Shown: positions 5,846-62,427 of the stretch, piece after piece | How positions within the stretch are numbered: position 1 is the first letter of the stretch | How the letters are laid out: each line of letters starts with the position of its first letter | NCBI RefSeq assembly: GCF_001610895.1 | Contig: NZ_CP011273.1 | Location: 2,356,001 to 2,420,000 of the forward strand | Direction: 5' to 3' | DNA length: 64,000 nucleotides | DNA from: Planctomyces sp. SH-PL62 | Lineage (GTDB): Bacteria; Planctomycetota; Planctomycetia; Isosphaerales; Isosphaeraceae | The notes under the pieces: model-generated | Told to the model about the DNA's origin: nothing | Databases searched by the model: none | Seen by the model: only the letters and a program-made list of their open reading frames with translations | Translations under genes and position numbers: made by a program

Positions 5846-6861
5846 ATGAAGAGGTCCACCCCGATGATCCGACAGCGGGTGATTCTGAGGGCGATCGGCG
5901 TCGGCCTGGCCGTCGCGTGGGGGGGCGACGTGGGGGCCGAGGAACCCGCCCCGCGCCCGCACGCGAGCTACGTCGAGGCCATCCCCGACTCGGCCGTCCG
6001 CTTCGAGATGGTCGCGATTCCCGGCGGGACGTTCACGATCGGCAGCCCTCCGGGCGAGCCGGGCCGCGACGACGACGAGGGCCCGCGCCAGCCCGTCGCG
6101 ATCCGCCCGTTCTGGATGGGCAAGCTGGAAGTCACCTGGGACGAGTACAACGAGTTCCGCAGGGGGAAGACCGTCTCGAACCGGACGAACGCCGAGGCCC
6201 TCGCCAAAGACGCCGACGCCGTCACCCGCCCCACGCCCCTTATCCCGATGAAACCTTCGGCTACGGCCGCGACGGCCGTCCGGCGATCGCCGTGAGCCAT
6301 CACGCGGCGATGGAATATTGCTACTGGCTCTCCCGGAAGACCGGCAAGACCTACCGGTTGCCGACCGAAGCCGAATGGGAGTACGCCTGTCGCGCCGGGA
6401 CGGAGACCGCCTACTCGTTCGGCGGCGACCCGGAGAAGCTCAAGGAATACGCCTGGTATTTCGACGACGCCGAGACGCCCATGCCGGTCGGCAAGAAGAA
6501 GCCCAACCCGTGGGGCCTGCACGACATGCACGGCAACGTGGCCGAATGGTGCCTCGACCGCTACGCCGCCGACGCCTACTCCCGGCTCCCTCAGGACCGT
6601 CCGGCCGTCGGTCCCACCCTCCTGCCGAAGGAAGCCCCGTACCCGCACGTCGCCCGGGGCGGCTCCTGGGACGACCCCGCCGCCGACTGCCGCAGCGCCG
6701 CGCGACGGGGCTCCGACCCGAGCTGGAACGAGCTGGACCCGGACGGGAGCATCTGGTGGGTCTGGGACGCCCCCTTCGTGGGCTTCCGCGTCGTGCGGGC
6801 CGTCGAGGAGCAGGAGGACCTCAAGGGCGTGCGCTCCCTGGTCCGGAGACCGGCCGATTGA
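5846..6861 (+). pseudogene. SUMF1/formylglycine-generating-enzyme family protein, frameshifted
   Basis: The gene is split over two frames. The first part (from 5846) gives a signal peptide and MVAIPGGTFTIGSPPGEPG, the usual start of the domain. The second part, in another frame and ending at 6861, gives LPTEAEWEYACRAGT, GLHDMHGNVAEWCLD and RGGSWDDP, all typical of the family. The frames meet at 6236-6240, where adding one C to the run cccc restores a 338-residue protein. The family includes enzymes that convert a sulfatase cysteine to formylglycine, and many secreted planctomycete members of unknown role. No sulfatase gene is adjacent. The intact motifs on both sides argue for a sequencing or assembly error, or a very recent mutation. 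Confidence 0.8.
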
Positions 6862-20574: not shown

Positions 20575-21495
20575 TCAGGAGACCAGGTCGGACTTGCGGG
20601 GGGACGCCGCGTCTTCGCGGAGCGGGCGGCGGTATCGCGAGGGGAGGGAGCGCAGGGCGACGACGACCTTCCGCCAGGTCGGGACCGACGCCCGGCCGGA
20701 CAGCACGTCGTAGTCGCGCCGGACGATCTCGTCGAGCAGGGCCCGGTAGATGCCGATGATCGTCAGCAGGACCGGACGCCCCACCGGGGCGACCAGAGGG
20801 ACGAGCCCGGCCGCCTCGTCGTAGCAGGCGTAGGCGCGCACGGCGTATTCCTCCAGCAGCCGACGGAGCGCCGGGCCGGTCTTCGCGGCGAGCAGGTCGG
20901 AATCCTCGACGCCGAAGCGTTCGAGGTCGCGCCTCGGGAAATAGACGCGGCCGTTCTCGGCGTCCTCGCGGACGTCGCGTAGGATGTTGGTGAGCTGGAG
21001 CGCCAGGCCGCAGCGGTCGGCCAGGGCCTCGGCGCGGCCGCCGTCGGACTCGTATCCCCAGATGTGGATGCAGCAGAGGCCCACGGCCGACGCGACGTGC
21101 CGGCAGTAGTCCGCCAGCTCCTCGAACTCGTCGAACCGCCGGGGAGAGAGGTCCATCTCCACGCCGTCGATCACCTCGTGCAGCAGCGCCGGGGGGATCG
21201 CGGCGGTGCGGACGGTGTCGGCCAGCGCGAGGAGGCCGGGCCAGGACGACGGCCGGCCGTCGAGCGCCTGGTCGAGGTCGCGGCGCCACTCGATCAGCGC
21301 GAGCGGCTTGTCCACGCCGGGGCGATCGTCGTCGGCCAGGTCGTCGGTGTGCCGCATGAAGGCGTACAGCGCGCACATCGCGCGACGGCGATCGGCCGGC
21401 AGGAGCCGGAACGCGTGGTAGAAGTTGCGGGCCTCGCGACGGGCGATCTCGCCGCAGACGCGGTAGCTCTCCGCAAGCCGGGCGTCGGTCTTCAC
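20575..21495 (-). CDS. hpnD: Presqualene diphosphate synthase HpnD
   Basis: The protein has 306 residues from a GTG at 21495 that overlaps the stop of hpnC (GTGA), so translation is coupled. Both Asp-rich motifs of trans-isoprenyl head-to-head synthases are present: MRHTDDLADDD near residue 45 and LQLTNILRDVREDAENGRVY near 165. There is also ARNFYHAFRLLP at the start and DVLSGRASVPTWRK at the end. It should condense two farnesyl diphosphates to presqualene diphosphate. The order hpnC-hpnD-hpnE is the one known for the non-eukaryotic squalene route in hopanoid-producing bacteria, and in planctomycetes squalene can also feed C30 carotenoids. Confidence 0.92.
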   Translation of the reverse strand: MKTDARLAESYRVCGEIARREARNFYHAFRLLPADRRRAMCALYAFMRHTDDLADDDRPGVDKPLALIEWRRDLDQALDGRPSSWPGLLALADTVRTAAIPPALLHEVIDGVEMDLSPRRFDEFEELADYCRHVASAVGLCCIHIWGYESDGGRAEALADRCGLALQLTNILRDVREDAENGRVYFPRRDLERFGVEDSDLLAAKTGPALRRLLEEYAVRAYACYDEAAGLVPLVAPVGRPVLLTIIGIYRALLDEIVRRDYDVLSGRASVPTWRKVVVALRSLPSRYRRPLREDAASPRKSDLVS

Positions 21496-22478
21496 GGGGA
21501 AGCCTCCCCGCGCGGCGATCTCGCGACCGGCCGGGGCGCGGCTCCGGGCCGGGGAGCCTTGCGACCGCCGGACAGTCGCGCCCGGGCCAGGCCGAAGACG
21601 GCGCGGGCCATCAGCCCGAGCTTCGCCGCCTTCCCCAGCGACGGCCGGGCGGAGAGCACGTCGAAGCCGCAGGCCTCGATCCGGTCCAGGATCGCGAGCC
21701 CCCCGCGCGAGAACAGGTCCACGTCCACGGCGAACTCCCCCGGGATGCGGGAGAGCAGGGGGCGGCCCCGGTCGAACAGCTCGCGGGTCCGGGCGACCTC
21801 GAACTTCAGCAGGTCGGCGAAGGCGGGGGTGAAGCGGCGGGCCCGCAGGTCGTCCTCGCGGACGCCGAACCGCTCGCGATCCTCGCGCGGCAGGTAGATC
21901 CGGCCGATGTCCAGGTCGCGCGAGACGTCCTGCCAGAAGTTCGCGAGCTGGAGCGCCGTGCAGGTGGCGTCGGAGAGCTTCGCGTTCTCCTCGTCGAACG
22001 CGCCCGCGACGTACAGGACGAGCCGGCCCACCGGGTCGGCCGATCCGGTGCAGTAGTCGCAAAGCTGGTCGAAGGTGGCGTAGTCCGTGACGGACTGGTC
22101 CTGGACGAAGGCGTCGATCAGGGCGTGGAACGGCCCGGGCGGGATGCCGTAGCGGTCGACGGTCTCCCCCAGGGCGATCATCACGGGGTGCCGGGCCCGG
22201 CCCTCGAACATCGCGTCGAGTTCGCCGCGCCACCAGGCGAGCAGCTCCAACGAGCGGGCGGGGTCGCCGACCTCGTCGGCCAGGTCGTCGGACCAGCGGC
22301 AGAAGGCGTAGATCGACTGGAAGGCGGGCCGGTGCTCGCGCGGGGTCAGCCAGGTGACGACGCTGAAGTTTTCATAGTGAGAGGCGGTCAGCCGCGCGCA
22401 ATAGTCGAGCGCGTCCCGGCGCGAGGCGGTCTCGCGGGCGGGGGGGCCGAATCGCCGGAGGTCCGTCTCGAACGTCAT
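21492..22478 (-). CDS. hpnC: Squalene-route enzyme HpnC (hydroxysqualene synthase)
   Basis: The protein has 328 residues. The first Asp-rich motif reads FCRWSDDLADEVGDP and the second LQLANFWQDVSRDLDIGRIY, the pattern typical of HpnC (LANFWQDV) as opposed to HpnD (LTNILRDV). It also has ALDYCARLTASHYENFSVVT near the N-terminus. HpnC converts presqualene diphosphate to hydroxysqualene. It is first in the hpnC-hpnD-hpnE unit. The last 35 residues are Arg/Pro-rich and probably disordered. The region in front (22479-22693) holds no other gene and should contain the promoters for this unit and for the divergent DUF1080 gene. Confidence 0.92.
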   Translation of the reverse strand: MTFETDLRRFGPPARETASRRDALDYCARLTASHYENFSVVTWLTPREHRPAFQSIYAFCRWSDDLADEVGDPARSLELLAWWRGELDAMFEGRARHPVMIALGETVDRYGIPPGPFHALIDAFVQDQSVTDYATFDQLCDYCTGSADPVGRLVLYVAGAFDEENAKLSDATCTALQLANFWQDVSRDLDIGRIYLPREDRERFGVREDDLRARRFTPAFADLLKFEVARTRELFDRGRPLLSRIPGEFAVDVDLFSRGGLAILDRIEACGFDVLSARPSLGKAAKLGLMARAVFGLARARLSGGRKAPRPGAAPRPVARSPRGEASP

Positions 22479-22693
22479 CCCGGGTCGCTCCGCTCCGAAG
22501 GTCGCCGCACGTTTGGGGCGTGATGGAGATCGATTCTACAGGGGGCCGGCGCATCCCGCCAGTCGGGCGCCGGGCGGCCCATTGACCCCGCCCCGCCGCG
22601 CCCCGACAATCGGCGCGTCTTCGCCGGTCGAGTTGATCGACCGCACCACGCGGCCTTCCCGCCGCACCTTCTCACACCCAGGGGAGAGCGATC

Positions 22694-23317
22694 ATGCGCA
22701 AGATGACCACGATCCGGCTCGCGGGCCTGCTCGCGACGGCGTTCCTGCTCCAGGCGTCGGCCGCACCGGCCCGCGCCCAGGCGACGCCGCTGTTCGACGG
22801 CAAGAGCCTGCAAGGCTGGATCACGCCCGACGACAAGGCCCTCTTCAGCGTCGAGGACGGCGTGATCGTCGGCCGCACCGCCGGCGACCTCAAGAAGAAC
22901 GAGTTCCTGGTCACGGCGAAGTCCTACAAGGACTTCACCCTCAAGGCCAAGGTGAAGCTCCGCAACGGCAATTCGGGCATCCAGGTCCGCAGCAAGCGCG
23001 CCGACGACGGCGCCGTCTCCGGCCCGCAGGCCGACGTGGCCGACGGCTATTGGGGCCTGCTCTACGACGAGCGCGGCCGCGGCATCCTCGAACGCTACCC
23101 CGAAGCCGAGGCCGCCAAGATCGTCAAGCAGGGGGACTGGAACGACCTCGCCATCACCTTCAAGGGCAAGCGCCTGACCGTCGTCCTCAACGGCGTCACC
23201 GTCATCGACCGCGAGGACAAGGAGTTCCCCGACGACGGCGTCATCGCCCTCCAGGTCCACGTCGGCCCCGCGATGGAAGTCCGCTACAAGGACATCACCA
23301 TCGAAGAACTGAACTGA
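22694..23317 (+). CDS. Secreted DUF1080-like (3-keto-disaccharide hydrolase-type) protein
   Basis: The protein has 207 residues with a strong ggggag site before ATG 22694. A signal peptide (about 1-30, cleavage near ARAQ) is followed by ATPLFDGKSLQGWITPDD, the hallmark start of the DUF1080 jelly-roll domain. Further in are FTLKAKVKLRNGNSGIQVRS and LQVHVGPAMEVRYKDITIEEL, which give the typical beta-sandwich end. The family is greatly expanded in planctomycetes, and some members hydrolyse 3-keto-glucosides. This copy is a single domain and is probably periplasmic or secreted. The exact sugar substrate cannot be inferred. Confidence 0.88.
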   Translation: MRKMTTIRLAGLLATAFLLQASAAPARAQATPLFDGKSLQGWITPDDKALFSVEDGVIVGRTAGDLKKNEFLVTAKSYKDFTLKAKVKLRNGNSGIQVRSKRADDGAVSGPQADVADGYWGLLYDERGRGILERYPEAEAAKIVKQGDWNDLAITFKGKRLTVVLNGVTVIDREDKEFPDDGVIALQVHVGPAMEVRYKDITIEELN

Positions 23318-23435
23318 CTCCAAGCGTTCGGACCGGGACCGCCGCCGTACGCAGGTCGTCGGAGCGTTCCCGGTCCGGGCTCGGCCCCCCTCGCCGGACC
23401 CCCCGGGCCGTTTCGGACGCCGATGGAGGCTCGCC

Positions 23436-29051: not shown

Positions 29052-29405
29052 TCAATAACGGGAGCCGCCTCCTCCGCCGCCATAGCCGCCTCGACCACCA
29101 CCGCCGCCGTAACCACCGCCGCCGCCACCGCCGTAGCCACCGCCGCCGCTCCGGGGCTCGCGGGGCTTGGCCTCGTTGACCGTCAGGTTCCGGCCGTCGT
29201 GGTCCCGGTCGTTGAGACCCTGAATGGCCGCCTGGGCTTCGGCGTCCGAACCCATCTCCACGAAGGCGAAGCCCTTGGAGCGGTTGGTGTCCCGATCGAC
29301 GATGACCTGGGCGCTCTGCACCGTCCCGAACTGGCTGAACAACGTCTCCAGGTCGGATTCGTTGACGTTGTAGGTGAGGTTTCCGACGTACAGTTTCTTG
29401 CCCAC
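29052..29405 (-). CDS. RRM-type RNA-binding protein with Gly-rich tail
   Basis: The protein has 117 residues from the GTG at 29405, which has a ggag site eight bases upstream; a longer frame upstream is not coding-like. It is a single RRM: RNP2 is KLYVGNL at the start and RNP1 is SKGFAFVEM near residue 50, with DLETLFSQFGTVQSAQVIVD between. The C-terminal 30 residues are almost only Gly, Tyr and Arg (GGYGGGGGRGGYGG). This is the layout of cyanobacterial Rbp/cold-induced RNA-binding proteins and of eukaryotic glycine-rich RNA-binding proteins. It should bind single-stranded RNA; a cold or stress role is plausible from the family. Confidence 0.9.
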   Translation of the reverse strand: MGKKLYVGNLTYNVNESDLETLFSQFGTVQSAQVIVDRDTNRSKGFAFVEMGSDAEAQAAIQGLNDRDHDGRNLTVNEAKPREPRSGGGGYGGGGGGGYGGGGGRGGYGGGGGGSRY

Positions 29406-30116
29406 GATCAAGCTCCGGAATGAACGTACCGCGACCGCCCAAATTGCTTTCCGGGCCGCTGGGAAAGGTGGACTCGCAAGAGTTCCAACTGGCGGGCGAG
29501 GCGAGAGAGGGGGCTTCGACAGGTTCGAATCGAGCCGGAGGAGCTTCTCGGTCGTCATACCAACCGATTAACACCATAACAAAAGTACGATCCGATGAAT
29601 AGGAGGGCGCAGGAAACAGGCCGCGATGACAGGGCGGCTGCGCCATGGGCGCCGCAGGCCTCCCACGGCCGGGTGACCGAGGGCCGGATGTTGCGGCGGA
29701 CCACCCCGACGAGCTCGATGGTCTCCTCGGATTTGTTGGCCAGGCACTCAATGGGGGAAATGGAGGTGGTTCGGGTGGACTCGGAAACGCGGCAGAGGGC
29801 TCAGCCATCCCACATTTGGCGACTGGCCAACACGGCCACCTGAGAACTTCACTGGCCGCCTAAACACTCCAGGTTGGGTGCGCGGCCGACTGCCGACCGG
29901 TTGGCCGGTAATTTCCAAAATGCGCGAGGATCGCGACGTCCGGGAGCAATCGTGGCGCTCTGGCGACCCATTGGAACCGAGCGGAAGTCTCGTGCCCAGA
30001 GGACAGAGCGGCAAAAATGGCTTATAACATCTTTTTTGAGTTGATTCCGGTCCGATCGGCTTCTAGGCTGTCCGCTTCACAACCTCGCCGCCCCATCGCC
30101 TAACGCCGAGACCGCC
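29406..30116. other. Gene-poor stretch with a dispersed repeat
   Basis: About 700 bases hold no supported gene. The part 29406-29600 may hold the promoter of the RRM gene. At 29682-29725 lies a 44-base sequence repeated at 33788-33831. The part 29860-30050 has a more balanced base composition than the genes around it. Confidence 0.4.
29682..29725. repeat. 44-base dispersed repeat, copy 1
   Basis: 41 of 44 bases agree with 33788-33831 in the same orientation; the shared core is gcggcggaccaccccg. Both copies are intergenic. It could be a remnant of a mobile element or of a coding-gene end; no gene is identified. Confidence 0.75.
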
Positions 30117-45302: not shown

Positions 45303-46645
45303 ACCCCTCGCTCCCCGAGAACGGCTGGGAGGACCGGCTTCGGGCAGGTCTGGGCGAGGCCCCCCGGCCCGACTTCGAAGCCTGGCGGGCCCGTCATTCG
45401 GACGCCCTCGACTCTCTCTCCCCCCCAAACCCGTCTCGATCCCGATTCCACCAACCCTGGAGGATCGCCATGACGCTCGGCCCGAAGTTGATCGCCGCAA
45501 CGCTGCTTATCGCCCTGGGGGCTCTCTACCTCCGCTCTGGAGGCGAGCTCGATCGACGCGCCTTCGCGGACACCATCCCCGGGGTCGACGATCCCGAGAT
45601 CCTCACCTGGACCACGACCTTCTATCCCCGCGCCACCAGCGCCGACGGCCGGACGACCTGGTTCGAGCCCGAGCGGCGGCTCCACGCCTACCGACGACCG
45701 GGGCAGTATCGCGAGACCCTGTTGGATCCGGAGGGACGGCCGCGCGTCGTCGAGATCACCGACGTCCGCGCGGGTCGCATGCTCGTCCTGGACCTGGACA
45801 AGAAGACGGCGGTCCTGAAAGCCCCCGTGACCTGGCCCGACGTCCGAGGACCTTTCGCCTGGGTCGGCGAGGCCCTCCGAGACCGCATGGTCGCCAGGAT
45901 CCTCCCCGTAAAGTCGGTCTCGCTCGTGGGCCGCAAGGAGATCGACGGGGCCCAGGCCAATCTCATCCGGCTCCTTGTCGACCGCGGCGACGACCAGGGA
46001 TACGGCCGCCGGGACCTCTACTTCGACGCCGCCTCGAAACGCCTCCTCGCCGTCTGGACCTCGAACGGCGACGTCGAGCTGGAATCCGCGAGGGCGAGCC
46101 TCCGGCCCCCTGGGGAGAAGGCCGCGTCGGTGATGGGCGAGGGGAGCCTGAACCACGAGATCGTCGTCGATGCGAAGCTCGACGCGGCGGATTTCAGCCT
46201 CGACCCGCCGGCCGGGTTCGCGTTCCAGGCGATCGCCAGGCCGACCGTCACGGAAGAGGAGATGGTCGGCTTCCTCGGGGCCGCCGCGAGGTTCAACGGC
46301 GACGTCTTCCCCGACTCGCCGTTCGCGGCCTTCGACCAGACCAAGTTCAACACGGCGAGCCTCAAACCCGCCGCCGACCGAACGGCCGCCGAGGCGGAAC
46401 TGATCCGGCTCCACGACAAGTTCCTCAGCCGGGAAGTGTTCCGATCGCCGGTCCTTCAATTCGTGGAGGACCACGCCGAGCCCGGCTCCTTCCAGTACGT
46501 CGGCGCGGGGGCCAAGCTGGGCGAGGCCGATCGGCTCGTCTGCTGGTATACGGCCAGGGGGGCGACCAAACCGCGAGCCGTGTTCGGCGACCTCTCCATC
46601 AGGGACGTCTCCCCGGCCGACCTCCCCATCGACCCCGCGAAGTGA
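45299..46645 (+). CDS. Membrane-bound partner of the ECF sigma factor (anti-sigma-like)
   Basis: The protein has 448 residues. The N-terminal about 55 residues (ENGWEDRLRAGLGEAPRPDF and so on) should be cytoplasmic. One membrane helix follows (about 60-78, LGPKLIAATLLIALGALYL), then a long extracytoplasmic part with beta-strand patterns. The start codon overlaps the sigma gene stop, as is typical of sigma/anti-sigma pairs. A zinc-binding anti-sigma motif is not seen. The extracytoplasmic domain resembles other secreted planctomycete beta-rich proteins. The role as anti-sigma factor is inferred from gene order and topology. Confidence 0.7.
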   Translation: MNPSLPENGWEDRLRAGLGEAPRPDFEAWRARHSDALDSLSPPNPSRSRFHQPWRIAMTLGPKLIAATLLIALGALYLRSGGELDRRAFADTIPGVDDPEILTWTTTFYPRATSADGRTTWFEPERRLHAYRRPGQYRETLLDPEGRPRVVEITDVRAGRMLVLDLDKKTAVLKAPVTWPDVRGPFAWVGEALRDRMVARILPVKSVSLVGRKEIDGAQANLIRLLVDRGDDQGYGRRDLYFDAASKRLLAVWTSNGDVELESARASLRPPGEKAASVMGEGSLNHEIVVDAKLDAADFSLDPPAGFAFQAIARPTVTEEEMVGFLGAAARFNGDVFPDSPFAAFDQTKFNTASLKPAADRTAAEAELIRLHDKFLSREVFRSPVLQFVEDHAEPGSFQYVGAGAKLGEADRLVCWYTARGATKPRAVFGDLSIRDVSPADLPIDPAK

Positions 46646-46658
46646 GTTCAAGGAACTG

Positions 46659-46683
46659 GCCCGTCCGGGGATGCCGGACGGGC
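46659..46683 (+). terminator. Hairpin after the sigma-partner gene
   Basis: A perfect 10-bp stem gcccgtccgg/ccggacgggc with a 5-base loop lies 13 bases after the stop. There is no T tract. Confidence 0.55.
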
Positions 46684-46758
46684 TCGTCGCCGTCGAACAG
46701 CGCCGAATCAACCCGTCGCGCAGGGCGGATCGACCTATCAGCGTCCGTCGGAGTTGCA

Positions 46759-46787
46759 TTGACGCATCGAGCGAATCTGCGTAAGGT
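46759..46787 (+). promoter_or_regulatory. Probable sigma-70-type promoter
   Basis: ttgacg (46759-46764), a 17-base spacer, and taaggt (46782-46787). It is the best-looking pair in the gap before the gene at 46873 and would give a 5' leader of about 80 bases. Confidence 0.5.
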
Positions 46788-46872
46788 CTCGACGTTTCGA
46801 GGTTCGCAGCTTGATGCGGGCTCGCGCCAGGACCGGCGCGAGCCCGAACCCACCCCGGCACGGAGTCGCCCC

Positions 46873-47547
46873 ATGTCCCGCTCAGGGAAGAACGCCCTCG
46901 TCGCCCGGCTCGCGCCGGCGCTGCTGTTCGTGCTCGCGGCCCCCGCCGACGCGGCCCCGATCCGCTACGACTTCGGCGGGGTCGTGACGCACTCGTACGG
47001 CTCGGAGGAGGTCGGCTCGCGATTCTCCGGGAGCTTCGTGTACGACCCCGATGCGCAGGCCATCAAGACGGTTCCCGAGGAGGGGGGCGGCGCTTACAAA
47101 GAGTACGCCTACGGGACGCATCACCCCGACGACCCCACTCCGGACGGCTCCGGGATCGAGGTCCGCATCGGCGACGAGCCGCTGCCGCTACGGATCGACG
47201 GCCTCACCATCGAGTCCAACTCGAAACCGTCGCCGATCGGCGAGGGGATCAACCTCAACCTCGTGTTCCGGGGCGGGCCCCGCAACGACGACCAGGGTGA
47301 GTTCTACCTCGTGTTCCGCGGCCAGAACATGCAGGGGGTCGGCTCGCTGCCTCCCCAGCTCCTGCTGGAGCAATTCTCCACGAGTGACCTGGTCGTCCTT
47401 CCCCCGTTGCAGTCCGCGCCGGACCTCGTCTATCTGGGTAAGATCGACACCCTGAGCGCGACCCCCGTCCCCGAGCCGGCGTGGACGGTCGCGGCGCTGA
47501 TGGGCGTGGCGGCCTGGGCCGCGCGACGACGCCGGAACGCCGGCTGA
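46873..47547 (+). CDS. Secreted protein with VPEP-type (PEP-CTERM-like) sorting tail, paralog 1
   Basis: The protein has 224 residues from ATG 46873. A signal peptide (about 1-27) is followed by PIRYDFGGVVTHSYGSEEVG, a beta-rich domain, and a C-terminal TPVPEPAWTVAALMGVAAW followed by AARRRR. This is the layout of PEP-CTERM proteins: VPEP motif, hydrophobic helix, Arg-rich end. Such proteins are sorted and cleaved by an exosortase and released or anchored to the outer surface. No exosortase gene is in this window. The gene at 47616 is a clear paralog with the same start and end, so the two arose by tandem duplication. Confidence 0.85.
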   Translation: MSRSGKNALVARLAPALLFVLAAPADAAPIRYDFGGVVTHSYGSEEVGSRFSGSFVYDPDAQAIKTVPEEGGGAYKEYAYGTHHPDDPTPDGSGIEVRIGDEPLPLRIDGLTIESNSKPSPIGEGINLNLVFRGGPRNDDQGEFYLVFRGQNMQGVGSLPPQLLLEQFSTSDLVVLPPLQSAPDLVYLGKIDTLSATPVPEPAWTVAALMGVAAWAARRRRNAG

Positions 47548-47615
47548 ACAGGGGCCGGTCGACGGCCGAATTTCGATCTGGAAGATCCTCCCCCGATAGC
47601 GCCAGGAGGCGCGCC

Positions 47616-48350
47616 ATGGCCCGAACCAATCGCCGCACCCTCATCCTCCGATTCGCCCCGGTACTGCTGCTGATCGCGGTCCCCGCCGCCGCCGCGCCGA
47701 TCCGCTATGACTTCGGGGGCGTGCTCACTCAAGCGGAAGCCTCGACGGGCGTCGCGCCAGGGACGCGGTTCACTGGGAGTTTCACCTACGACGACGCGGC
47801 CTTGCCCGTGCAGTCCTTCGAGTATCCCAATTCGCGCGGCGACTTCGCACAATATGTTTTCGGCGCACATCGCCTCCCGGACGGGTCGACCGACGGCTCC
47901 GGCATCGAGCTGCGAATCGACGGGGGACCGACGGTCCGCTCCGAGGGAGATCTCACGATCGACTCATGGTCCACGATGCGCCCCGAGTACCGGCCGTCGC
48001 CCGCGATCGAACTCCACATCCGGAGCGACCTTCCCGACTACTCGAAGGGGCCGGATTACGGCGTCTCCATCTTCCTCGAAGGCCAGCAGCGCGTCGTCTG
48101 GCCCGGCGATCCCGTCCCCGCCGACCTGGCTCTGAGCGACTTCCCCAAGGCCAAGGTCTACCTGCTGGGCCGACTCCCCGAGCGTCCAGACGGGTGGCTC
48201 GGTGAGCCGCCGAGCCCGGACTCCAACGTGCAACTCGCCGTGGGCGAGATCGACTTCCTCACCGCCACCCCCGTCCCCGAGCCGGCCTGGACGGTCGCGG
48301 CGCTCCTGGGCGCGGCGGCCTGGGCGGCGCGGCGGCGGGCTTCGCGCTGA
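47616..48350 (+). CDS. Secreted protein with VPEP-type sorting tail, paralog 2
   Basis: The protein has 244 residues with an aggagg site before ATG 47616. It shares PIRYDFGGVLTQAEASTGVA with paralog 1 near the N-terminus and ends with TPVPEPAWTVAALLGAAAW and AARRRASR. The middle part differs more (FGAHRLPDGSTDGSGIELR). It lies 68 bases after paralog 1 on the same strand. Tail and signal are like those of PEP-CTERM proteins. The shared start (PIRYDFGG) and GSGIE(V/L)R block indicate a common fold. It is convergent with nadB. Confidence 0.85.
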   Translation: MARTNRRTLILRFAPVLLLIAVPAAAAPIRYDFGGVLTQAEASTGVAPGTRFTGSFTYDDAALPVQSFEYPNSRGDFAQYVFGAHRLPDGSTDGSGIELRIDGGPTVRSEGDLTIDSWSTMRPEYRPSPAIELHIRSDLPDYSKGPDYGVSIFLEGQQRVVWPGDPVPADLALSDFPKAKVYLLGRLPERPDGWLGEPPSPDSNVQLAVGEIDFLTATPVPEPAWTVAALLGAAAWAARRRASR

Positions 48351-48390: not shown

Positions 48391-50036
48391 TCATCGGCTC
48401 ACGCCTGCCGGCTCGTTCGGCTCGCCCGGTGCCCGCACGGGGATGTGGCGGCGCCAGGAGGGGTCGGTGACGGGGAAGTCGGAGCGGAAGTGGACGCCTC
48501 GGGATTCGGTGCGCTCGGCGGCGGCGGCGATCATGAGGCGGGCGGTGGTGAGCATGTTCTGGACGGCCCAGCCGGCGGGGTCGTCGAAGACGTGGGGGAG
48601 GACGTAGCGGCACCAGCGGTCGACCTGCTGGGCGGCCTCGGCGAGCCCGGCCGCGTCTCGGGTGATGCCCATCCGCCGCCACATCAGGGCGCAGAGCGAT
48701 TCGCGGAGGTCGGTCAGGTCGATGGCCGGTCGACGCTCGCGCGGGGTCGCCGCGGCGATCGCCGGGACTTCGAGCTGCCAGGGGCCGGTCGCGTCGAGCC
48801 GGGCGGCGACGTCCTCGGCGACGCGGGCCCCGTAGACAAGGCCTTCCAGCAGGCTGTTGGACGCCAGCCGATTCGCGCCATGGAGCCCGGTGCTGGAGAC
48901 TTCGCCGGCAGCCCAGAGGCCGTCGAGCGAGCTGCGGCCGTAGTCGTCGACGGTCACGCCGCCGATCATGTAGTGCGCGCCGGGGCAGACGGGGATCAGG
49001 TCGCGGGTGATGTCCAGGTCGAATCCCCGGCAGATGCGGTCGATGCCCGGGAACCGGCTTCGGATCGCGTCGGCGTCGAGGTGCGTGAGGTCGAGGTAGA
49101 CGTTGGGATGCCGCGTCCTGGCCATCTGGGCGGCGATCGCCTGCGAGACGGCGTCGCGCGGGGCGAGCTCGGCCCGAGGGTCGAAGTCGGACATGAAGCG
49201 ACGGCCCTCGCAGTCGCGCAGGTAGGCGCCCTCGCCGCGCAGGGCTTCGGTCAGGAGGTGCCTCGCCGACCCGGCCATGTAGAGGACCGTGGGATGGAAT
49301 TGCATGAATTCCATGTCGCGCAGCTCGGCCCCGGCGCGGTAGGCCATGGCGTGGCCGTCGGCCGTGGCGATCGACGGGTTGGTGGTCTCGCGGAAGAGCT
49401 GCCCCGCGCCGCCGGTGGCCAGCACGACGGCCCGCGCCCAGACCAGGGCGAACCCCCGGCGCTTGTCCCAAACCAGGACCCCCCGGCAGCGGCCGTCGAG
49501 GGTCAGCAGGTCGACCGTGGTGCAGTTCTGCCAGATCCGGATGTTCTCCCGGGCTCGGGCCTGCGCGATGACCGCGCGCATGATCTCGCGGCCGGTCTCG
49601 TCGCCCAGGGCGTGGACGATGCGGGCGTGGGAATGGCCCCCCTCGCGGCCGAGGGCGACCTGGCCGCCGACGGTGTCGAAGTGGGCGCCCATCTCCATCA
49701 GCTCGCGGATCCGCTCGGGGCCTCGCGCACGACCAGGTCGACCACGCTCGGATCGCAGAGATCCTTGCCGGCGGAGAGCGTGTCGGCGATGTGGTCCTCG
49801 ACGCGGTCCTCAGGGTCCATCACCCCGGCGATGCCCCCCTGGGCGTAGCTGCTGTTGCTCTCGCGGACCTCGTCCTTGGTCACGACCAGCACCCGCGCCG
49901 AGGCCGGGACCCCCAGCGCCGCGCGGAGGCCCGCGATGCCGCCGCCGACGACCACGACGTCGGCGAAGTGGTGGGGGAGTTCGCGAGGGTCGAAACCGAC
50001 GAGGTATCGCCGGGGGAGGAGCAGGGGGGTCGTCAT
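48391..50036 (-). pseudogene. nadB: L-aspartate oxidase, frameshifted
   Basis: The gene is split in two frames. The first (50036 down to about 49720) gives the FAD-binding start FADVVVVGGGIAGLRAALGV and NSSYAQGGIAGVMDPEDRVE. The second (about 49715 down to 48391) gives ARAVVLATGGAGQLFRETTN, GAELRDMEFMQFHPTVLYMA and SSTGLHGANRLASNSLLEGL. Adding one base to the gggg run at 49717-49720 joins them into ERIRELMEMGAHFD, the expected sequence, and a 548-residue protein of normal length. NadB oxidises L-aspartate to iminoaspartate in NAD synthesis. The excellent motifs in both parts suggest the gene is functional in the cell and that the break is a base-calling or assembly error. Confidence 0.88.
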
Positions 50037-50201: not shown

Positions 50202-50832
50202 CTCATGGGGTTCCGTCGGCCGGCTTCGGCTGGGCGGGTCGGCCGGAGGCGGCGGCGGGGCGGCGGGAGAGGGCGTTCTTGTAGCTTTCGACCTTGCCCC
50301 GGAATTCGGCCGGGGGGGCGAAGCGGAGGCCCTCCTGGTTGGCTCGGACCTCGTCCTGGGGCATCCCCCCACGCTCCTTGATCCACTTGCTGGACGACCG
50401 GGCGCGCTCGCCGAGGCCGGGAAGGCCGGGCTCGGCGCGGGCCGATTCGCCGGATTCGCCCGGCTCGATCGGGATGTCGCGGCCGGGGCCCGCGGGCTCG
50501 GACTTGACCTTCTCGTACTGCTTGACGAACTGCTCCATCTCGGTCCGGCTCATGCCGGTCGCCGCCTCCAGGTCGGAGGTGTCGGCCTTGTTGTCGAGCA
50601 TGTCGCGGATCGTCCGGAGTACCAGTTCGGACTGGTCCTGGTCGCGCGGGGCCACCGACTCGCCCGAGGCGTCGTCCCTCTGCCGGACCTCGCCCGCCGG
50701 CTCCGCCTCCCGCTCCGCGCCCCCCGGAAGCGACCCGCCCTCCGGCGTTCCCCCACCGCCCGTGGGATTCGCAGCCCCCTGGCCGCCGCTCGGCTGGCCG
50801 GACTGCTGGCCACCCGATCCGCCCGACTTCTG

Positions 50833-51485
50833 AGCCTCGGCCTGACCCGATTTCTGCTCGCCGGTCTGGCCCGACTTCTGGTCGGCCTGACCGGACTTCT
50901 GATCGCCGGCCTGGCTGGACTGCTCCCCAGGCTGGCCCGGCTTCTGGTCTCCAGGCTGACCGGACTTCTCACCAGCCTGGCCGGACTTCTGGTCGCCGGG
51001 CTGACCGGATTTCTCACCAGCCTGGCCGGACTTCTGGTCGCCAGGCTGCCCCGACGGCTGATCGCCGGGCTGACCCGATTTGCCGCCGGCCTGGCCCGAC
51101 TTCTGGTCGCCGGGCTGACCGGATTTCTGATCGCTGGGTTGCCCAGTCTTCTGATCTCCCGGTTGACCTGACGGCTGATCGCCAGGCTGACCCGATTTGC
51201 CGCCGGCCTGGCCCGACTTCTGGTCGCCGGCCTGGCCGGACTTCTGGTCGCCGGACTGGCCCGACTGCTCTCCAGCCTGGCCGGCCTTCTGGTCGCCGGA
51301 TTGACCGGACTTCTGGTCCTGAGGCTGGCCCGACTTCTGATCGCCGGGTTGACCGGACTTCTGGTCCTGCGGCTGACCGGCCTTCTGGTCCTGCGGCTGG
51401 CCCGACTTCTGATCGCCAGGTTGACCGGACTGACCGGACTTCTGGTCCTGCGGCTGATCCGACTTCTGGTCCTGCGGCTGGCTCT
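50833..51485 (-). repeat. Divergent octapeptide (24-bp) tandem repeats, block B
   Basis: The minus-strand frame reads variations of GQPGDQKS, such as SGQAGEKSGQPGDQKPGQPG. Individual units differ in sequence and in length, so this block is older or less homogenised than block A. Confidence 0.85.
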
Positions 51486-52230
51486 GGGACTGGTCGCCCT
51501 TGGGGGGGGGCATGGACGGATCGGTCGGGGGTGAGGCGTCGTTGGGGCGTTGGCGGGGCTGCTCCTGGGGCGAGGCCGGTTCTTCGGCCGGCTTCTCTTC
51601 GGGCTGGCCCTCGGGCCTGGCACGCTTCTCGGCCGCCTTTTCGGGGTCCTTGGGTTTGGGCGAGACGTACTTGCCCGGCTCCTCCTTCTTGTCGCCGGTC
51701 TTGTCGTCCTTTTTAGGTTCGGCCTTCGCGTCGGGGGACGCCTTGGGCTGGTCCTTGGTTTGATCCTTCGTCTGGGCGTCTTTCCGCGCGGGTTGTTCGC
51801 CGGCGCGCGCCCGCTCCTGCGCCTGGGGATCGTCGGGCCTCGAATCCGTCTGCTTGGGATCCCGAGGGGCATTCGGGTCCTGCACCCGCTGGTCGGGACG
51901 AGCGTTCGGGTCGGCGGCCTGGGCCTGGCGCGCGGCCTCTTCTCGGTCCTTCTGGTCCTCGCGTCGGGCGTTCTTCTCGGCCTCGGTCGACTCGGGCTTG
52001 CGGCCGTCCGCGGTCTTTTCCGACGGCTCGCCGGTCCGGGGCTCGCGTGCGCCCTTGGTTTGGTCGTTCGTCTTCTCGTCGGTCGCGCGATCGTCCTCCG
52101 GCTTCACACCGTCGGGGCGAGGCTCCGAGGCCGGATCGCCGGGCCTCTCCTGACCCTTCTCAGGACGCCCCGCTCGTTCCTTTTGCTCGCCCGTCTCGCG
52201 ATTCGCCTCTTCGGAGGCCGCTTTCTCCAT

Positions 52231-53047
52231 GCCCGACTTCTGATCGCCAGGCTGGCCCGACTTCTGATCACCGGGCTGGCCGGACTTCTGGTCGCCAGGC
52301 TGGCCGGACTTCTGATCGCCGGGCTGACCCGACTTCTGATCGCCGGGCTGGCCGGACTTCTGATCGCCGGGCTGCCCGGACTTCTGGTCCCCGGGCTGGC
52401 CCGACTTCTGATCGCCGGGCTGACCCGACTTCTGATCGCCGGGCTGGCCGGACTTCTGATCCCCGGGCTGGCCCGACTTCTGGTCCCCGGGCTGCCCGGA
52501 CTTCTGGTCGCCAGGCTGGCCCGACTTCTGATCCCCGGGCTGCCCGGACTTCTGGTCGCCAGGCTGGCCCGACTTCTGATCCCCGGGCTGCCCGGACTTC
52601 TGATCCCCGGGCTGCCCGGACTTCTGGTCGCCAGGCTGGCCGGACTTCTGGTCTCCGGGCTGGCCCGACTTCTGATCGCCGGGATGGCCCGACTTCTGAT
52701 CGCCGGGCTGACCCGACTTCTGATCGCCAGGCTGGCCGGACTTCTGATCGCCGGGCTGCCCGGACTTCTGGTCCCCGGGCTGGCCCGACTTCTGATCGCC
52801 GGGCTGACCCGACTTCTGATCGCCGGGCTGGCCGGACTTCTGATCCCCGGGCTGGCCCGACTTCTGATCGCCGGGCTGCCCCGACTTCTGGTCCCCGGGC
52901 TGGCCGGACTTCTGGTCGCCAGGCTGGCCCGACTTCTGATCCCCGGGCTGCCCGACTTCTGATCCCCGGGCTGGCCCGACTTCTGATCGCCGGGATGGCC
53001 CGACTTCTGATCGCCGGGCTGACCGGACTTCTGCTCGCCGGGCTGGT
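52231..53047 (-). repeat. Near-perfect 24-bp tandem repeats, block A
   Basis: About 33 copies of a 24-bp unit encode GQPGDQKS. Units vary mainly at silent positions (for example gatcgccgggctg or gatccccgggctg) and in one His (GHPGDQKS). One unit near 52950 is one base short, which shifts the frame. Confidence 0.92.
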
Positions 53048-55342
53048 TTGGATTCTGGGGGCGCTCGCCGGGGTTGACTTCGCCGGTGCGGTTGTCGGCG
53101 TTGGGGGCGGGCTGGGGCTGGGCGGGCTTGGCGCCGGGGCGGCGTCGGGCTGTTGCATGCGGGGGCGTTCGCCGGGCTGTTCGTCGCCCTGGCGGGACTG
53201 GTCGCCGCCGGGCGCGCCGGGGTTGGCCGGCTGGTCCTGGGGACGGCCGGGGTCCTTGTCGAGGAGGCCCTTCTTCTGGAGGAATTCCTTGGCGCGCCGC
53301 AACTTCTCGGCGTCGGCGGGGTCGGGGTTGCGGCCGGGCTCGCCGCCGGGATTCTCGCCGGGCTGGGCGTTGGGGTCCTCGTCGGCGTCGCCGGGCTGGC
53401 GATCGGGAGGGTTCTCGCCGCGATCGGGGGCGGGACGCTCGTCGCGGGGGGTTCCGCCGTCGGGACGGCTCTCGCCCTGGGGAGCCTGGTCGGGCTGCTC
53501 GAGGGGCTGCTCGGCCTGCCGGGCGGGGTCCTGTTCCTGGGTCGGGTCGGAGGGGGGCGGGGGCTGATTCTGCTGGGCCTCGCGGGCTTCGCGCTCGCGA
53601 CGTTCGCGTTCCTCGGCCTGGCGCTGCTCGATCTCCTGCTTTTCCTGGGGGGCGACGGGGTCGCCGACTTCCAGGGTCCAGCGCGGGGTTTCGATGCGGT
53701 TGGAGGTGGGCTCGCGGTTGTCGCGGACGGCCAGCCAGTAGGTGAGGGTCGAGCCGGCGGGGACCTTGAGCTGTTCCAGGTCGAGGATCTCGGCGTCCTC
53801 GAACGCCGGGCGGGGGGGGCGGCCTTCAAGGACGTTCTTCGTGACGAGGGCTTCCTGGCCCAGCATGACGTGGAGGGTGGCGTCCTTGACGCCGTGGTCG
53901 TCGTCGCCGGTCATGACGAGGTCGACGGGCACGTTGGCCGGGACCTTCACGCCGCTGCGCTCGGGCTTGACGAACCGGGCGGCCGGGGGGCGGTCGGGGA
54001 GGGCGAGGATGTCGTGGACGACCGGGTTCGGATTGAGCTGGCCGCCGGTCGTGCGGAAGTTGATCGTGTAGGTCCCGGTCTTCTCGACCTTGAACTTGCC
54101 GGTCAGCTCGCGGGGGTCGGCCTCCGAGACGGTCATCCCGGCGGAGGCGCCGGCGGTCAGGTTCAGCGAGCCCGCGCGGGCCGGTTCGTTGGTCCGGGCG
54201 TGGACCGTGACGATGGTCCCTTCGAGCGCCTCGACGTTCCCCCCTTCAATGTCCGTGCGGGGAGGGACGCCGGTGTAGCGGGGGAACTCGTAGTCGATCA
54301 TGACCGACTCGATCATCGGCGCGGGGAGGACCTTCAGCTCGTAATGGAGCGACTCGGCGTCGTTGGCGGTGACGAAGTAGTCCAGGCTTTGCTGGAGGTT
54401 CGTCAGGGTCGCGGCCCACGGGTCGTAGTAGTTCTTGCCCGGGTCGAACTCCTTGACCGCGTAGAACTTGCCGCCGTCGGCGCTGTAGTGGAGCTTGACC
54501 TTCTCGGGGCGGACGCCCTGGACGTCGACCGAGAACTGGACGTGCGAGCCGGCGACGATCTCGGCCAGCTCGGGGTCGTCTCCCGGCTTGATGTTCACCA
54601 GCTTGGTGTTGGTGGGGCGGACGACGTCGGCGAGGAAGGCGCGCTTGGTGGAGTCGAGGATGCTCTTGGGGGTGAAGGCGGCGTAGATGCAGAAGGCGAC
54701 GATCACGCCGCAGAGCGCGTAGGCCGTCTGCATGGCCCGCCGCTGGTCGACCACGTCGTCGAGCTCGATCTGGGTCAGGTCGGCGACCGCGCGGGACTCC
54801 AGGGCGGCCATGACGTTCTTGGAGACCCGGGCCGGGTCGCGGCGGATTTCCAGATAGTTGATCAGGCTGTTCTTGATGTCGGGGTCGGCCCCCTCGATCG
54901 TCTTGGCGGCGTACATCGCGTTGATCGACATCGCCAGGGGCCGGACCACCCGCATCAGGATGAAGGCGGCGGCCGACACGGTCCCGGCCATCAGGATCAT
55001 CCGGCGCACGAAGACCGGCAGGCCGAAGGCGTGGTCGAGGACGACCTCGATCAGGAGCACCAGGGCGAGGCCCGCCGCCAGCGTCAGGCAGGCGGTGACC
55101 AGGTCGGTGTACTTGATCCGCCTTCGGGTGAGGGCGATCTGGTGCTCGATGAACTCCTTGTAGTCCAGGAGCTTGCCCTGGGTCCGCGTCTGGGCGCCGG
55201 CCGTCATGCCATGATCCCCCGGATGTGTCTACGCGTGCCGAGCCGAGCGAAAGGTCCGTGCATTATACGTCCGGCCGCCCCGAAAAGAACGAAGCGACCT
55301 CCGAATCGCTTCGTTCCGCCCGCCGGGCCGGGCTCGCGGGGG

Positions 55343-56410
55343 TCAGGCCCACTCGACCTCGCGAGCGCCGGGGACGACCTCGCCGATGATCCAGGCCGGG
55401 ACGTCGGCCTTCTGGTTGAGGTGGCGGACGATCGACTCGGCGTAGTAGTCGGCGACGACTACCACCATGCCGATCCCCATGTTGAAAACGCGGAACATCT
55501 CCTCGTCGGCCACGCCGCCGAGCTGCTGGAGCCAGGTGAAGACCGGGGGGACCGCCCACGACCCGCGCTTCAGGCGGATGTTGCAGCCGTCGGGGAGGAT
55601 CCGCGGGGGGTTGTCGATCAGGCCGCCGCCGGTGATGTGGGCGATGGCGTGGACGATCCGCTTGACCCGGTAGTGGCGGTAGACTTCCTTGAGCGGCCGG
55701 GTGTAGATCCGGGTCGGCTGGAGCAACTCGTCGGCGACGGTGCGGCCCAGGGCCTCGACGCGATCGTCGAGCTTGAGCCCGGCGTGGTCCAGGACGATCT
55801 TGCGGGCCAGGCTGTAGCCGTTGGAGTGCAGGCCCGAGGAGGCCAGGCCGATGACCTTGTCGCCGATCCGGACGTCCTGGCCGTCCAGGAGCCGCTTGCG
55901 GTCGACGACCCCGAGGCAGAAGCCGGCGAGGTCGTATTCGCCGGGCTGGTAGAACTCGGGGAGGATGGCGGTCTCGCCGCCGATCAGGGCGCATTCGGCC
56001 TCGATGCAGCCGTCGCTGATCCCCTTGACGACCTGGGTGGTCAGCTCGGGGTCGTCCTTGCTCATGGCGACGTAGTCGAGGAAGATCAGGGGTTCGGCCC
56101 CGGCGCAGAGGCAGTCGTTGACCGACATCGCCACCAGGTCGATCCCCACGGTGTCGTGCCGGCCGGTCGCCACCGCCAGCTTCAGCTTGGTCCCCACGCC
56201 GTCGGTGGAGGCGACCAGGACGGGGTCGCGATAGGTCCGCGAGAAGAGGCCGAGCTTGGCGTCGAGCCGGAAGAGCCCGGCGAAGCCGTCCTTCCACTCC
56301 ATCACGCGGGGCGTGAACGTCCGGCGCATCAGGGGGGGGAGGCGAGCCATCGTCTCGTCATAAGTGGTCAGGTCCACGCCCGCCGATCGATAATTCAGTG
56401 GCTCGCTCAT
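55343..56410 (-). CDS. purM: Phosphoribosylformylglycinamidine cyclo-ligase
   Basis: The protein has 355 residues from ATG 56410 (a longer frame upstream is not coding-like). Typical PurM motifs are present: YRSAGVDLTTYDE at the start, ASTDGVGTKLKLAV, AMSVNDCLCAGAEPLIFLDY, ALIGGETAILPEFYQPGEYD, GLASSGLHSNGYSLARKIVL, HITGGGLIDNPPRILPDGC and MFRVFNMGIGMVVV. These build the ATP and FGAM sites. The enzyme makes aminoimidazole ribonucleotide in purine synthesis. No other purine gene is adjacent. It is divergent from the cytochrome gene. Confidence 0.96.
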   Translation of the reverse strand: MSEPLNYRSAGVDLTTYDETMARLPPLMRRTFTPRVMEWKDGFAGLFRLDAKLGLFSRTYRDPVLVASTDGVGTKLKLAVATGRHDTVGIDLVAMSVNDCLCAGAEPLIFLDYVAMSKDDPELTTQVVKGISDGCIEAECALIGGETAILPEFYQPGEYDLAGFCLGVVDRKRLLDGQDVRIGDKVIGLASSGLHSNGYSLARKIVLDHAGLKLDDRVEALGRTVADELLQPTRIYTRPLKEVYRHYRVKRIVHAIAHITGGGLIDNPPRILPDGCNIRLKRGSWAVPPVFTWLQQLGGVADEEMFRVFNMGIGMVVVVADYYAESIVRHLNQKADVPAWIIGEVVPGAREVEWA

Positions 56411-56550
56411 AACCGTCCGCAGAAAGAGAATCCCGAGGGGACGTCGCCCCGAAACCGATGCGCCGACAGGAGAATCATCGCCCAGCGCGGCCGACGCCGA
56501 CAAGGCGCCTCCGCCCCGACGCCCCCCGCATGACGCGCGGGGCCCCATCC

Positions 56551-61182: not shown

Positions 61183-62427
61183 ATGTCCGCCGTTCCGATC
61201 AGCGTCCCCGGGGTCGGTGAATCGATCTCCGAAGGCATCCTCGCCAAGTGGCTCGCCGCCGACGGCTCGACGGTCAAGGCCGGCGATCCGCTCTTCGAGC
61301 TGGAGACCGACAAGGCGACCAACGTCGTCCCCGCGCCGGCCTCGGGCGTCCTCAAAGCCCAGGCCGCCGAGGGGGACACCGTCGCCATCGGCGCCACCGT
61401 CGGCGTCATCGACCCGTCGGGAACCCCCACCGCCGCCGCCGCCGCCGCCGCCGCCAAGACCCCCGCTCCCGAGCGGGGGGATTCCAAGCCGACCCCGGCG
61501 CCCGCGAAGGGGGCCGCGAACGGCGTCGACCACCTCTCGCCCGCCGTCCGCCGGATCGTCGCCGAGGAAGGCGTCGACCCGTCCCAGGTCGCCGGGACCG
61601 GCAAGGGAGGGCGGATCACCAAGGGAGACGTCCTGGACCACGCGGCCTCCGGCGCGTCCGCCAAGGCCCCTGAATCGGCGCCCGCTCCGGCCGCCCCGCC
61701 GGCCCCGAAGCCTCCCGTGGCGAAGGAAGGCCGCGAGACCCGCGAGCGGATGAGCGGCCTCCGGCAGCGGATCGCCCAGCGCCTGGTCGAGGCCCAGCAC
61801 ACGGCCGCCATCCTCACGACCTTCAACGAGGTCGACCTGACCCGCGTCATGGCGACCCGGTCGAAGTACAAGGAGGCGTTCCAGAAGGCCCACGGGGTCT
61901 CCCTGGGCTTCATGTCCTTCTTCATCAAGGCGACGATCGAGGCCCTCAAGGCGTTCCCGAACGTCAATGCCCGGATCGAAGGGCATGAGATCGTCCGCCA
62001 CAACTACTACAACATCGGCGTGGCCGTGAGCACCGATCGGGGCCTCATGGTCCCCGTCGTCCGCGACGCCGACCAGCTCTCGTTCGCCGGCATCGAGCTG
62101 GCCATCGGCCACTACGCCGACAAGGCCCGCAAGGGCACGATCGGCGTCGACGACCTCCAGGGGGGGACGTTCACGATCACCAACGGCGGCGTCTTCGGCT
62201 CGCTCGTCTCGACGCCGATCCTCAACCCCCCCCAGAGCGGCATCCTCGGCATGCACGCGATCAAGAAGCGCCCCGTCGTCGTCGACGACCAGATCGTCAT
62301 CCGGCCCATGATGTACCTGGCCCTCTCGTACGACCACCGGCTGATCGACGGCCGAGAGGCCGTCAGCGCCCTGGTCCGCATCAAGGATTGCCTCGAAGAC
62401 CCCGAGCGGCTGCTCCTGGAAATCTGA
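61183..62427 (+). CDS. sucB: 2-oxoglutarate dehydrogenase E2 component (dihydrolipoyl succinyltransferase)
   Basis: The protein has 414 residues. The N-terminal lipoyl domain (1-80) has the lipoylated Lys in [17 protein letters not shown]. An Ala/Pro linker is followed by the E3-binding domain (about 110-150, [20 protein letters not shown]), a second linker and the catalytic domain (about 185-412), which ends in [20 protein letters not shown] with the active His and Asp. The composition of the E3-binding domain and the short linker are typical of SucB. The ATG follows sucA closely with ggaaggag upstream, so the two are coupled. A strong terminator follows (62445-62487). Confidence 0.97.

Follow-up and report, generated by a model that had tools for sequence, protein, structure and literature searches.

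A predicted envelope protein of Planctomyces sp. SH-PL62 with a long repeat-bearing linker that appears to be kept among relatives while its repeat mostly changes

Introduction

The window analyzed here, 64,000 nucleotides of Planctomyces sp. SH-PL62 (contig NZ_CP011273.1, positions 2,356,001 to 2,420,000), carries a gene (50203-55207, minus strand) in which a predicted membrane part is followed by tandem copies of the octapeptide GQPGDQKS. This locus raises the question of what such a repeat does on a membrane protein, and whether the repeat itself or the long linker that it helps to fill is the conserved feature. We compared the gene with its relatives and found that, in the sequences at hand, the linker is conserved while the repeat mostly is not. 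With moderate confidence, we propose that the product is a membrane-anchored envelope protein whose flexible, disordered tail would tether a conserved C-terminal docking domain outside the cytoplasm. All features of the gene given below lie on the minus strand, and relatives are named by genome (G) and locus (L) handles.

Results

Conservation of the linker and turnover of its repeat

Among 34 relatives of the gene, 21 had both ends in one open frame, two (G001 and G014) had the C-terminal domain in another frame, five were truncated by a contig end, and six gave no C-terminal domain with the seed profile; a contig search with one protein as the query returned two loci. Counted from residue 541, the linker spanned 320-1468 residues in the 21 relatives of the first group. 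It had no cysteine in 20 of these 21, and tryptophan, phenylalanine and tyrosine occurred 0-4 times each. From this composition we infer a disordered linker. Pfam matches to Cornifin, Gp5_trimer_C and PT were dismissed as low-complexity matches. The G007 linker (L045) has four cysteines and includes a cysteine-rich stretch, CPNCNGAGCATCNGTG, which presumably resembles a zinc-binding DnaJ-type motif.

The sequence of the linker was largely replaced between relatives. Only 0-1% of the 6-residue words (6-mers) of the window linker were present in each of 19 other linkers, and the reverse comparison reached a maximum of 0.03 (G003). The same was seen in five congeners, with N-terminal parts 72-88% identical to that of the window protein and at most 1% of its linker 6-mers; one congener was without a clear array. 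Sharing was high between G013 and G030 (0.63-0.66, with N-terminal parts 94% identical), intermediate between G021 and G034 (0.33-0.41), and low between G031 and G014 (0.07), and some pairs among the glutamine/glycine-rich linkers of G003, G005, G013, G025, G030, G035 and G004 shared up to 0.22. In the linkers of G004, G028, G033 and G035, the commonest 8-mer had at most 3 copies. The original prediction had made its case depend on relatives having the repeats; what they retain is the linker, and the GQPGDQKS repeat is mostly absent from them.

Two arrays of 24-base-pair (bp) units were detected in the window gene, both translated from the minus strand: 52231-53046, with 34 copies and 88% matches, and 50792-51431, with 27.5 copies and 70% matches. 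By array detection and unit count, block 1 (52234-53024, first unit from 53024) comprises 33 octapeptide units, 31 GQPGDQKS and 2 GHPGDQKS, whereas block 2 (50809-51480, array detection and translation) consists of divergent GQxGDQKS-like units. Both the count of about 33 units and the pair of tandem blocks with a divergent second one, as originally predicted, were thus recovered. The arrays are separated by a lysine/glutamate/proline-rich motif (51568-51675), with similar motifs detected by a pattern in G001, G004 and G014 and on inspection in G031 and G033, and the linker opens with a short helix-like motif (53261-53308) for which similar stretches were seen in relatives by eye, without a statistic. 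A degenerate DNA pattern of the octapeptide unit matched the genome 38 times, every time within this gene, compared to 0 matches for the pattern read backwards.

The units had been described as near-identical, and this was taken to indicate recent expansion. The description holds for the protein and fails for the DNA, where the 33 units of block 1 fall into 17 haplotypes with a mean pairwise identity of 0.896. Because of these 17 haplotypes, and because none of the 32 adjacent pairs is identical, block 1 is no fresh perfect expansion. An exact 5-unit block copied 16 units away is the only visible trace of newer array growth.

Constraint on the units within arrays

Mismatches between neighboring units of block 1 numbered 0, 0 and 87 at the three codon positions, and the ratio of nonsynonymous to synonymous differences (pN/pS) of its unit codons was 0.01. 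Since the differences are almost all synonymous, the protein sequence seems to be held while the DNA drifts, which speaks against the recent expansion originally proposed. Low ratios were common in the family, with pN/pS below 0.3 in 23 of the 29 relatives that have enough tandem DNA.

We then considered distinct one-step alleles in 15 arrays out of 35 genes, the other 20 being without a repeated peptide having at least 4 tandem neighbors; G001 was cut by hand ahead of its frame break. There were 130 synonymous and 32 nonsynonymous alleles, compared to 26% synonymous expected. Even a model permitting any polar change gave 32% synonymous expected against 82% observed, and polar-to-polar changes numbered 28 compared to 85 expected at equal total. 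The excess was significant in 14 of the 15 arrays (p < 0.05; G030, p = 0.067), these p-values being indicative only, since copied blocks make alleles non-independent and units were chosen by peptide likeness. The two blocks of the window combined had 12 synonymous and 7 nonsynonymous alleles, and block 1 alone had 7 and 1, respectively. Off-frame controls on the array DNA gave synonymous fractions of 0.15, 0.22, 0.32, 0.59 and 0.16 (7, 7, 10, 14 and 8 arrays passing, respectively) compared to 0.80 in frame. Since within-array variants are mostly synonymous, the unit peptides seem to be constrained, although selection for recombination-dampening synonymous changes may contribute to the excess. 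The pattern is opposite to the relaxed purifying and positive selection that PMC5120217 reports for repeats within proteins.

The membrane part and its relation to DUF4175

The N-terminal conserved part (53618-55207; homology search, alignment, Pfam scan of members and hydropathy) has three predicted transmembrane helices followed by a region distantly related to DUF4175. The helices occupy residues 39-57 (55037-55093, hydropathy 2.57), 70-88 (54944-55000, hydropathy 2.03) and 161-179 (54671-54727, hydropathy 1.92), and about 350 conserved residues lie between them and the linker. By hydropathy, 22 of 24 members have three helices and two members, G025 and G035, have two. Lysine and arginine counts in the loops predict that everything downstream of the third helix, including the tail, lies outside the cytoplasm. 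These results agree with the original picture of a membrane protein carrying a hydrophilic extension of hundreds of residues that is probably unstructured and, by prediction, lies outside the cytoplasmic membrane.

The N-terminal 559 residues found a match in 59 of 59 genomes, own genome and paralogues counted; the best match was strong in most genomes and looks paralogue-only in some (G015, E = 2.6e-13; G029, E = 1.1e-15). The protein had also been called DUF4175-like. For the window protein itself this was not borne out, with no match to DUF4175 (PF13779) at E ≤ 1 for the whole protein and none at E ≤ 0.1 for the N-terminal part alone, but 15 of 24 aligned family members matched at E ≤ 0.1 (best 3.9e-12), and the orthologues of G007 and G039 exceeded the cut-off among 13 genomes searched. 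The matches of the members cover a portion of the model, roughly positions 172-380, and leave out the linker and C-terminal domain. A weak match of the N-terminal part to protocadherin (E = 0.44) was not used.

A paralogue in the same genome (L073:7771-11316, beside DUF58 and BatA genes) has a related N-terminal region (24% identity), but its tail reads as charged and helical, and a comparable linker is absent. It scored 26.7 against DUF4175 as a whole protein and 31.9 in the genome search, the cut-off being 27.3. The interval L073:1931-11316 was also noted as holding this paralogue with its DUF4175-like region next to DUF58 and BatA-like genes.

The conserved C-terminal domain

The gene ends in a conserved helical domain of about 130 residues (50260-50670; alignment, genome matches and structure model). 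It gave a single match per genome in 41 of 45 genomes of the order, including 26 of 26 good ones. In a phylum-wide sample it was present in 20 of 246 genomes, with 16 of these 20 being either the own genome or members of its class. A later profile recovered the domain in G037, G049 and G050, within the same gene. Five draft loci (L033, L047, L059, L060 and L061, from G003, G023, G006, G010 and G036, respectively) break off inside the linker, with the domain located on a different contig in each case. A structure model from 2 sequences had a mean predicted local distance difference test score (pLDDT) of 55; residues 41-80 of the modelled piece formed three helices (pLDDT 81-84), and residues 146-160 an extra one. 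Two weak matches were not used: a 'CAP repeat' chain (E = 0.0017, with no single stretch passing) and IHF (0.67).

Reading frame and apparent breaks

The membrane part and the repeats had been presented as one protein, but in the current assembly no single open frame unites the membrane part, the array and the C-terminus. The frame starting with ATG at 55207 (979 amino acids) carries the membrane part, departs from the family sequence near 53135, crosses the array in the wrong frame and stops at 52268 within the array, whereas the GQPGDQKS frame is a separate open reading frame without a membrane part. Three-frame reading placed one break, from frame 0 to frame 2, at 53130-53140 (near 53135), with one base apparently missing beside a C run, and another, from frame 2 to frame 1, at 52948-52958 (near 52953), where unit 4 begins and a single base again appears to be lost. 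The array thus opens in the second frame, and from unit 4 (52953) the third frame runs to the stop at 50203. Both breaks amount to one lost base each, next to a C or G run, and bridging them, as the open frames of relatives suggest, gives a gene of about 1,670 codons.

Two relatives, G001 and G014, have one break each, in the same direction as in the window gene. The adjoining gene, nadB, is split likewise near 49717. Compared with G005 (29 genes, 35.6 kb), the only multi-frame genes were nadB and the gene studied here; compared with G001 (30 genes, 38.4 kb), they were nadB, an FGE-sulfatase-like gene in two frames (5864-6849) and a match at 20578-23377. Both ends could be located in 23 relatives, and 21 of these need no change of frame between them. 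Because of this, and because the adjoining nadB, the sole copy in the genome, is likewise split, both window breaks are likely one-base sequencing or assembly errors. The repeats are out of frame with the membrane part in the current assembly, a circumstance that would count against the original prediction but probably stems from sequencing error.

Gene neighborhood

The next gene downstream is nadB (L-aspartate oxidase; 48391-50036, minus strand; profile matches and neighborhood comparison), the only nadB of the genome, which the assembly splits into two frames. A second nadB-profile match (209 bits) was rejected as a succinate dehydrogenase flavoprotein. Among the 29 loci with a gene that runs to a stop codon, nadB lay downstream on the same strand in 24, its match beginning 406-963 bases past the gene end; it was on the opposite strand in G041 and was not found in the stretch examined for G004, G037, G050 and G058. 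Upstream, purM (55343-56422, minus strand; neighborhood comparison) comes next, as it does in all five congeners and in G028, G031 and G033. The named neighbors are nadB, purM, a lipoate ligase and 2-oxoglutarate dehydrogenase genes. The linkage to nadB helps to identify the orthologue and leaves its role unexplained.

Elsewhere in the window, two similar adjacent genes at 46642-48350 have a PEP-CTERM-like tail (VPEPAWTVAAL...), with a weak profile match for the first and none for the second. By reading, a minus-strand open reading frame at 29052-29558 resembles a small RNA-binding protein with a glycine/tyrosine-rich tail, and a CCG run at 61430-61455 encodes consecutive alanines in what looks like a gene for 2-oxoglutarate dehydrogenase E2.

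Discussion

We suggest that the three transmembrane helices would anchor the protein in the cytoplasmic membrane with its conserved domain just outside, and that the linker, with roughly 1,000 polar, aromatic-poor residues, would act as a flexible tether keeping the small C-terminal helical domain at a distance. That domain may dock on another part of the envelope, such as the cell wall, the outer membrane or a partner protein. Selection would maintain a long flexible linker free of hydrophobic residues; tandem duplication may often provide its length, giving each lineage its own repeat, and the unit sequences, once built, would be maintained by selection. A spacer or periplasm-spanning role, as first suggested for this tail, would accordingly be the best reading.

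Several observations weigh against a tether of this kind. The more than fourfold spread in linker length is loose for a ruler, and the seed profile did not find the C-terminal domain in G038, G047 and G053. The structure models help little, as the low-confidence model of the C-terminal domain had no match in the PDB at E ≤ 0.001 and that of the N-terminal part (3 sequences, pLDDT 42) was too poor for a structure search. Six of the 29 relatives fall outside the low pN/pS range: G001 (1.37), G058 (0.68), G017 (0.55), G047 (0.44), G033 (0.39) and G004, for which the ratio is undefined (0 synonymous and 4 nonsynonymous changes). The value for G001 is partly wrong-frame and becomes 0.59 and 1.0 frame by frame, on few changes, which still leaves it an exception. 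Several of the low values are also based on few changes, one antisense frame showed an unexplained synonymous excess (0.59 compared to 0.27 expected), and the nadB linkage is uninformative on the envelope.

The alternative that we find doubtful, yet consider ahead of the others, is that function resides in the two conserved ends and the low-complexity stretch between them is inert filler. Such sequence would be tolerated as slippage and the duplication of blocks enlarge it, and selection would act solely against hydrophobic or frame-breaking changes. The differing units of most relatives, the four linkers without an 8-mer above 3 copies, and the exact 5-unit duplication inside block 1 would fit this explanation, but all 21 relatives with both ends in frame retain at least 320 linker residues, and the scarcity of polar-to-polar changes within arrays is more than it predicts. 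Amino-acid constraint inside arrays would instead be expected if the units bound one another or polysaccharide to form a gel-like layer outside the membrane, since they would then have to match mutually while remaining free to change between lineages. The mostly lineage-private units and the glutamine/glycine-rich, mixed-charge composition are consistent with such a cohesive brush; however, some relatives have no homogeneous array and very few aromatics are available as stickers, so we regard it as unlikely. Rather improbable, too, is a lineage-specific recognition polymer, with units that bind one another or an envelope partner evolving alongside them. If true, the peptide would be uniform in each genome and swapped between species, a conserved machine with a fast-changing code.

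The frame breaks bear on two further explanations. A true pseudogene in this strain would account for the two breaks in the assembly, and a very recent loss would leave the unit codons intact at their low pN/pS; nevertheless, that ratio, the splitting of nadB and the FGE-sulfatase-like gene as well, and the single same-direction breaks of G001 and G014 make it very unlikely. Programmed frameshifting or phase variation that toggles the tail would fit breaks in or near repeats, in the same direction, in three genomes. It is the least probable explanation of all, given that 21 of 23 relatives need no shift, that the copy number of a 24-bp unit cannot alter the frame, that the break sites differ, and that nadB is broken too.

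The membrane-anchored tether can be compared with known systems. The disordered C-terminal linker of FtsZ, according to PMC9939409, lies between conserved parts with low sequence similarity, and its flexibility, net charge and length count rather than its sequence. The linker described here likewise keeps its presence and polar composition and not its sequence, with lengths ranging over 320-1468 amino acids; it exceeds the FtsZ tail of 68-104 residues several- to many-fold in length and, by prediction, is located outside the cytoplasm. TolA and TonB, the force transducers treated in PMC12204202, share a membrane anchor, a variable extended periplasmic middle and a C-terminal domain, a likeness in working only. 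They have one membrane helix, whereas this family has three predicted (two in G025 and G035) and about 350 conserved residues before the linker. No SHLS motif was found within residues 1-80 of 24 members, and no TonB or TolA C-terminal family was among the Pfam matches of 21 C-terminal domains; membership fails on helix count and C-terminal domain type. AdvA of Acinetobacter baumannii, a DUF4175 protein required for cell division according to PMC7481262, shares the DUF4175 domain and predicted membrane helices, and the link is by domain label only. The planctomycete 'giant genes' above 5 kb, as outlined in PMC5352709, are similar in length (about 5 kb here), which is a size class and not a family. 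No description of the protein appeared among the listed titles and abstract openings of papers that combine planctomycetes or Paludisphaera with the subjects of repeats, disorder or tethers. The main text of PMC8567305 does not contain 'disordered', 'low complexity' or 'aspartate oxidase', and that of PMC6821194 does not contain 'planctomycet'.

The gene is easily missed, as contigs end within the linker in 5 of 34 loci. It offers a natural case in which the polar composition of a linker persists and its sequence is replaced, yet the units within one genome appear constrained. Its single occurrence in nearly all genomes of the order, its conserved tip, and its predicted extracytoplasmic tail of about 1,000 residues make the protein a direct candidate for a linker of envelope layers in these bacteria.

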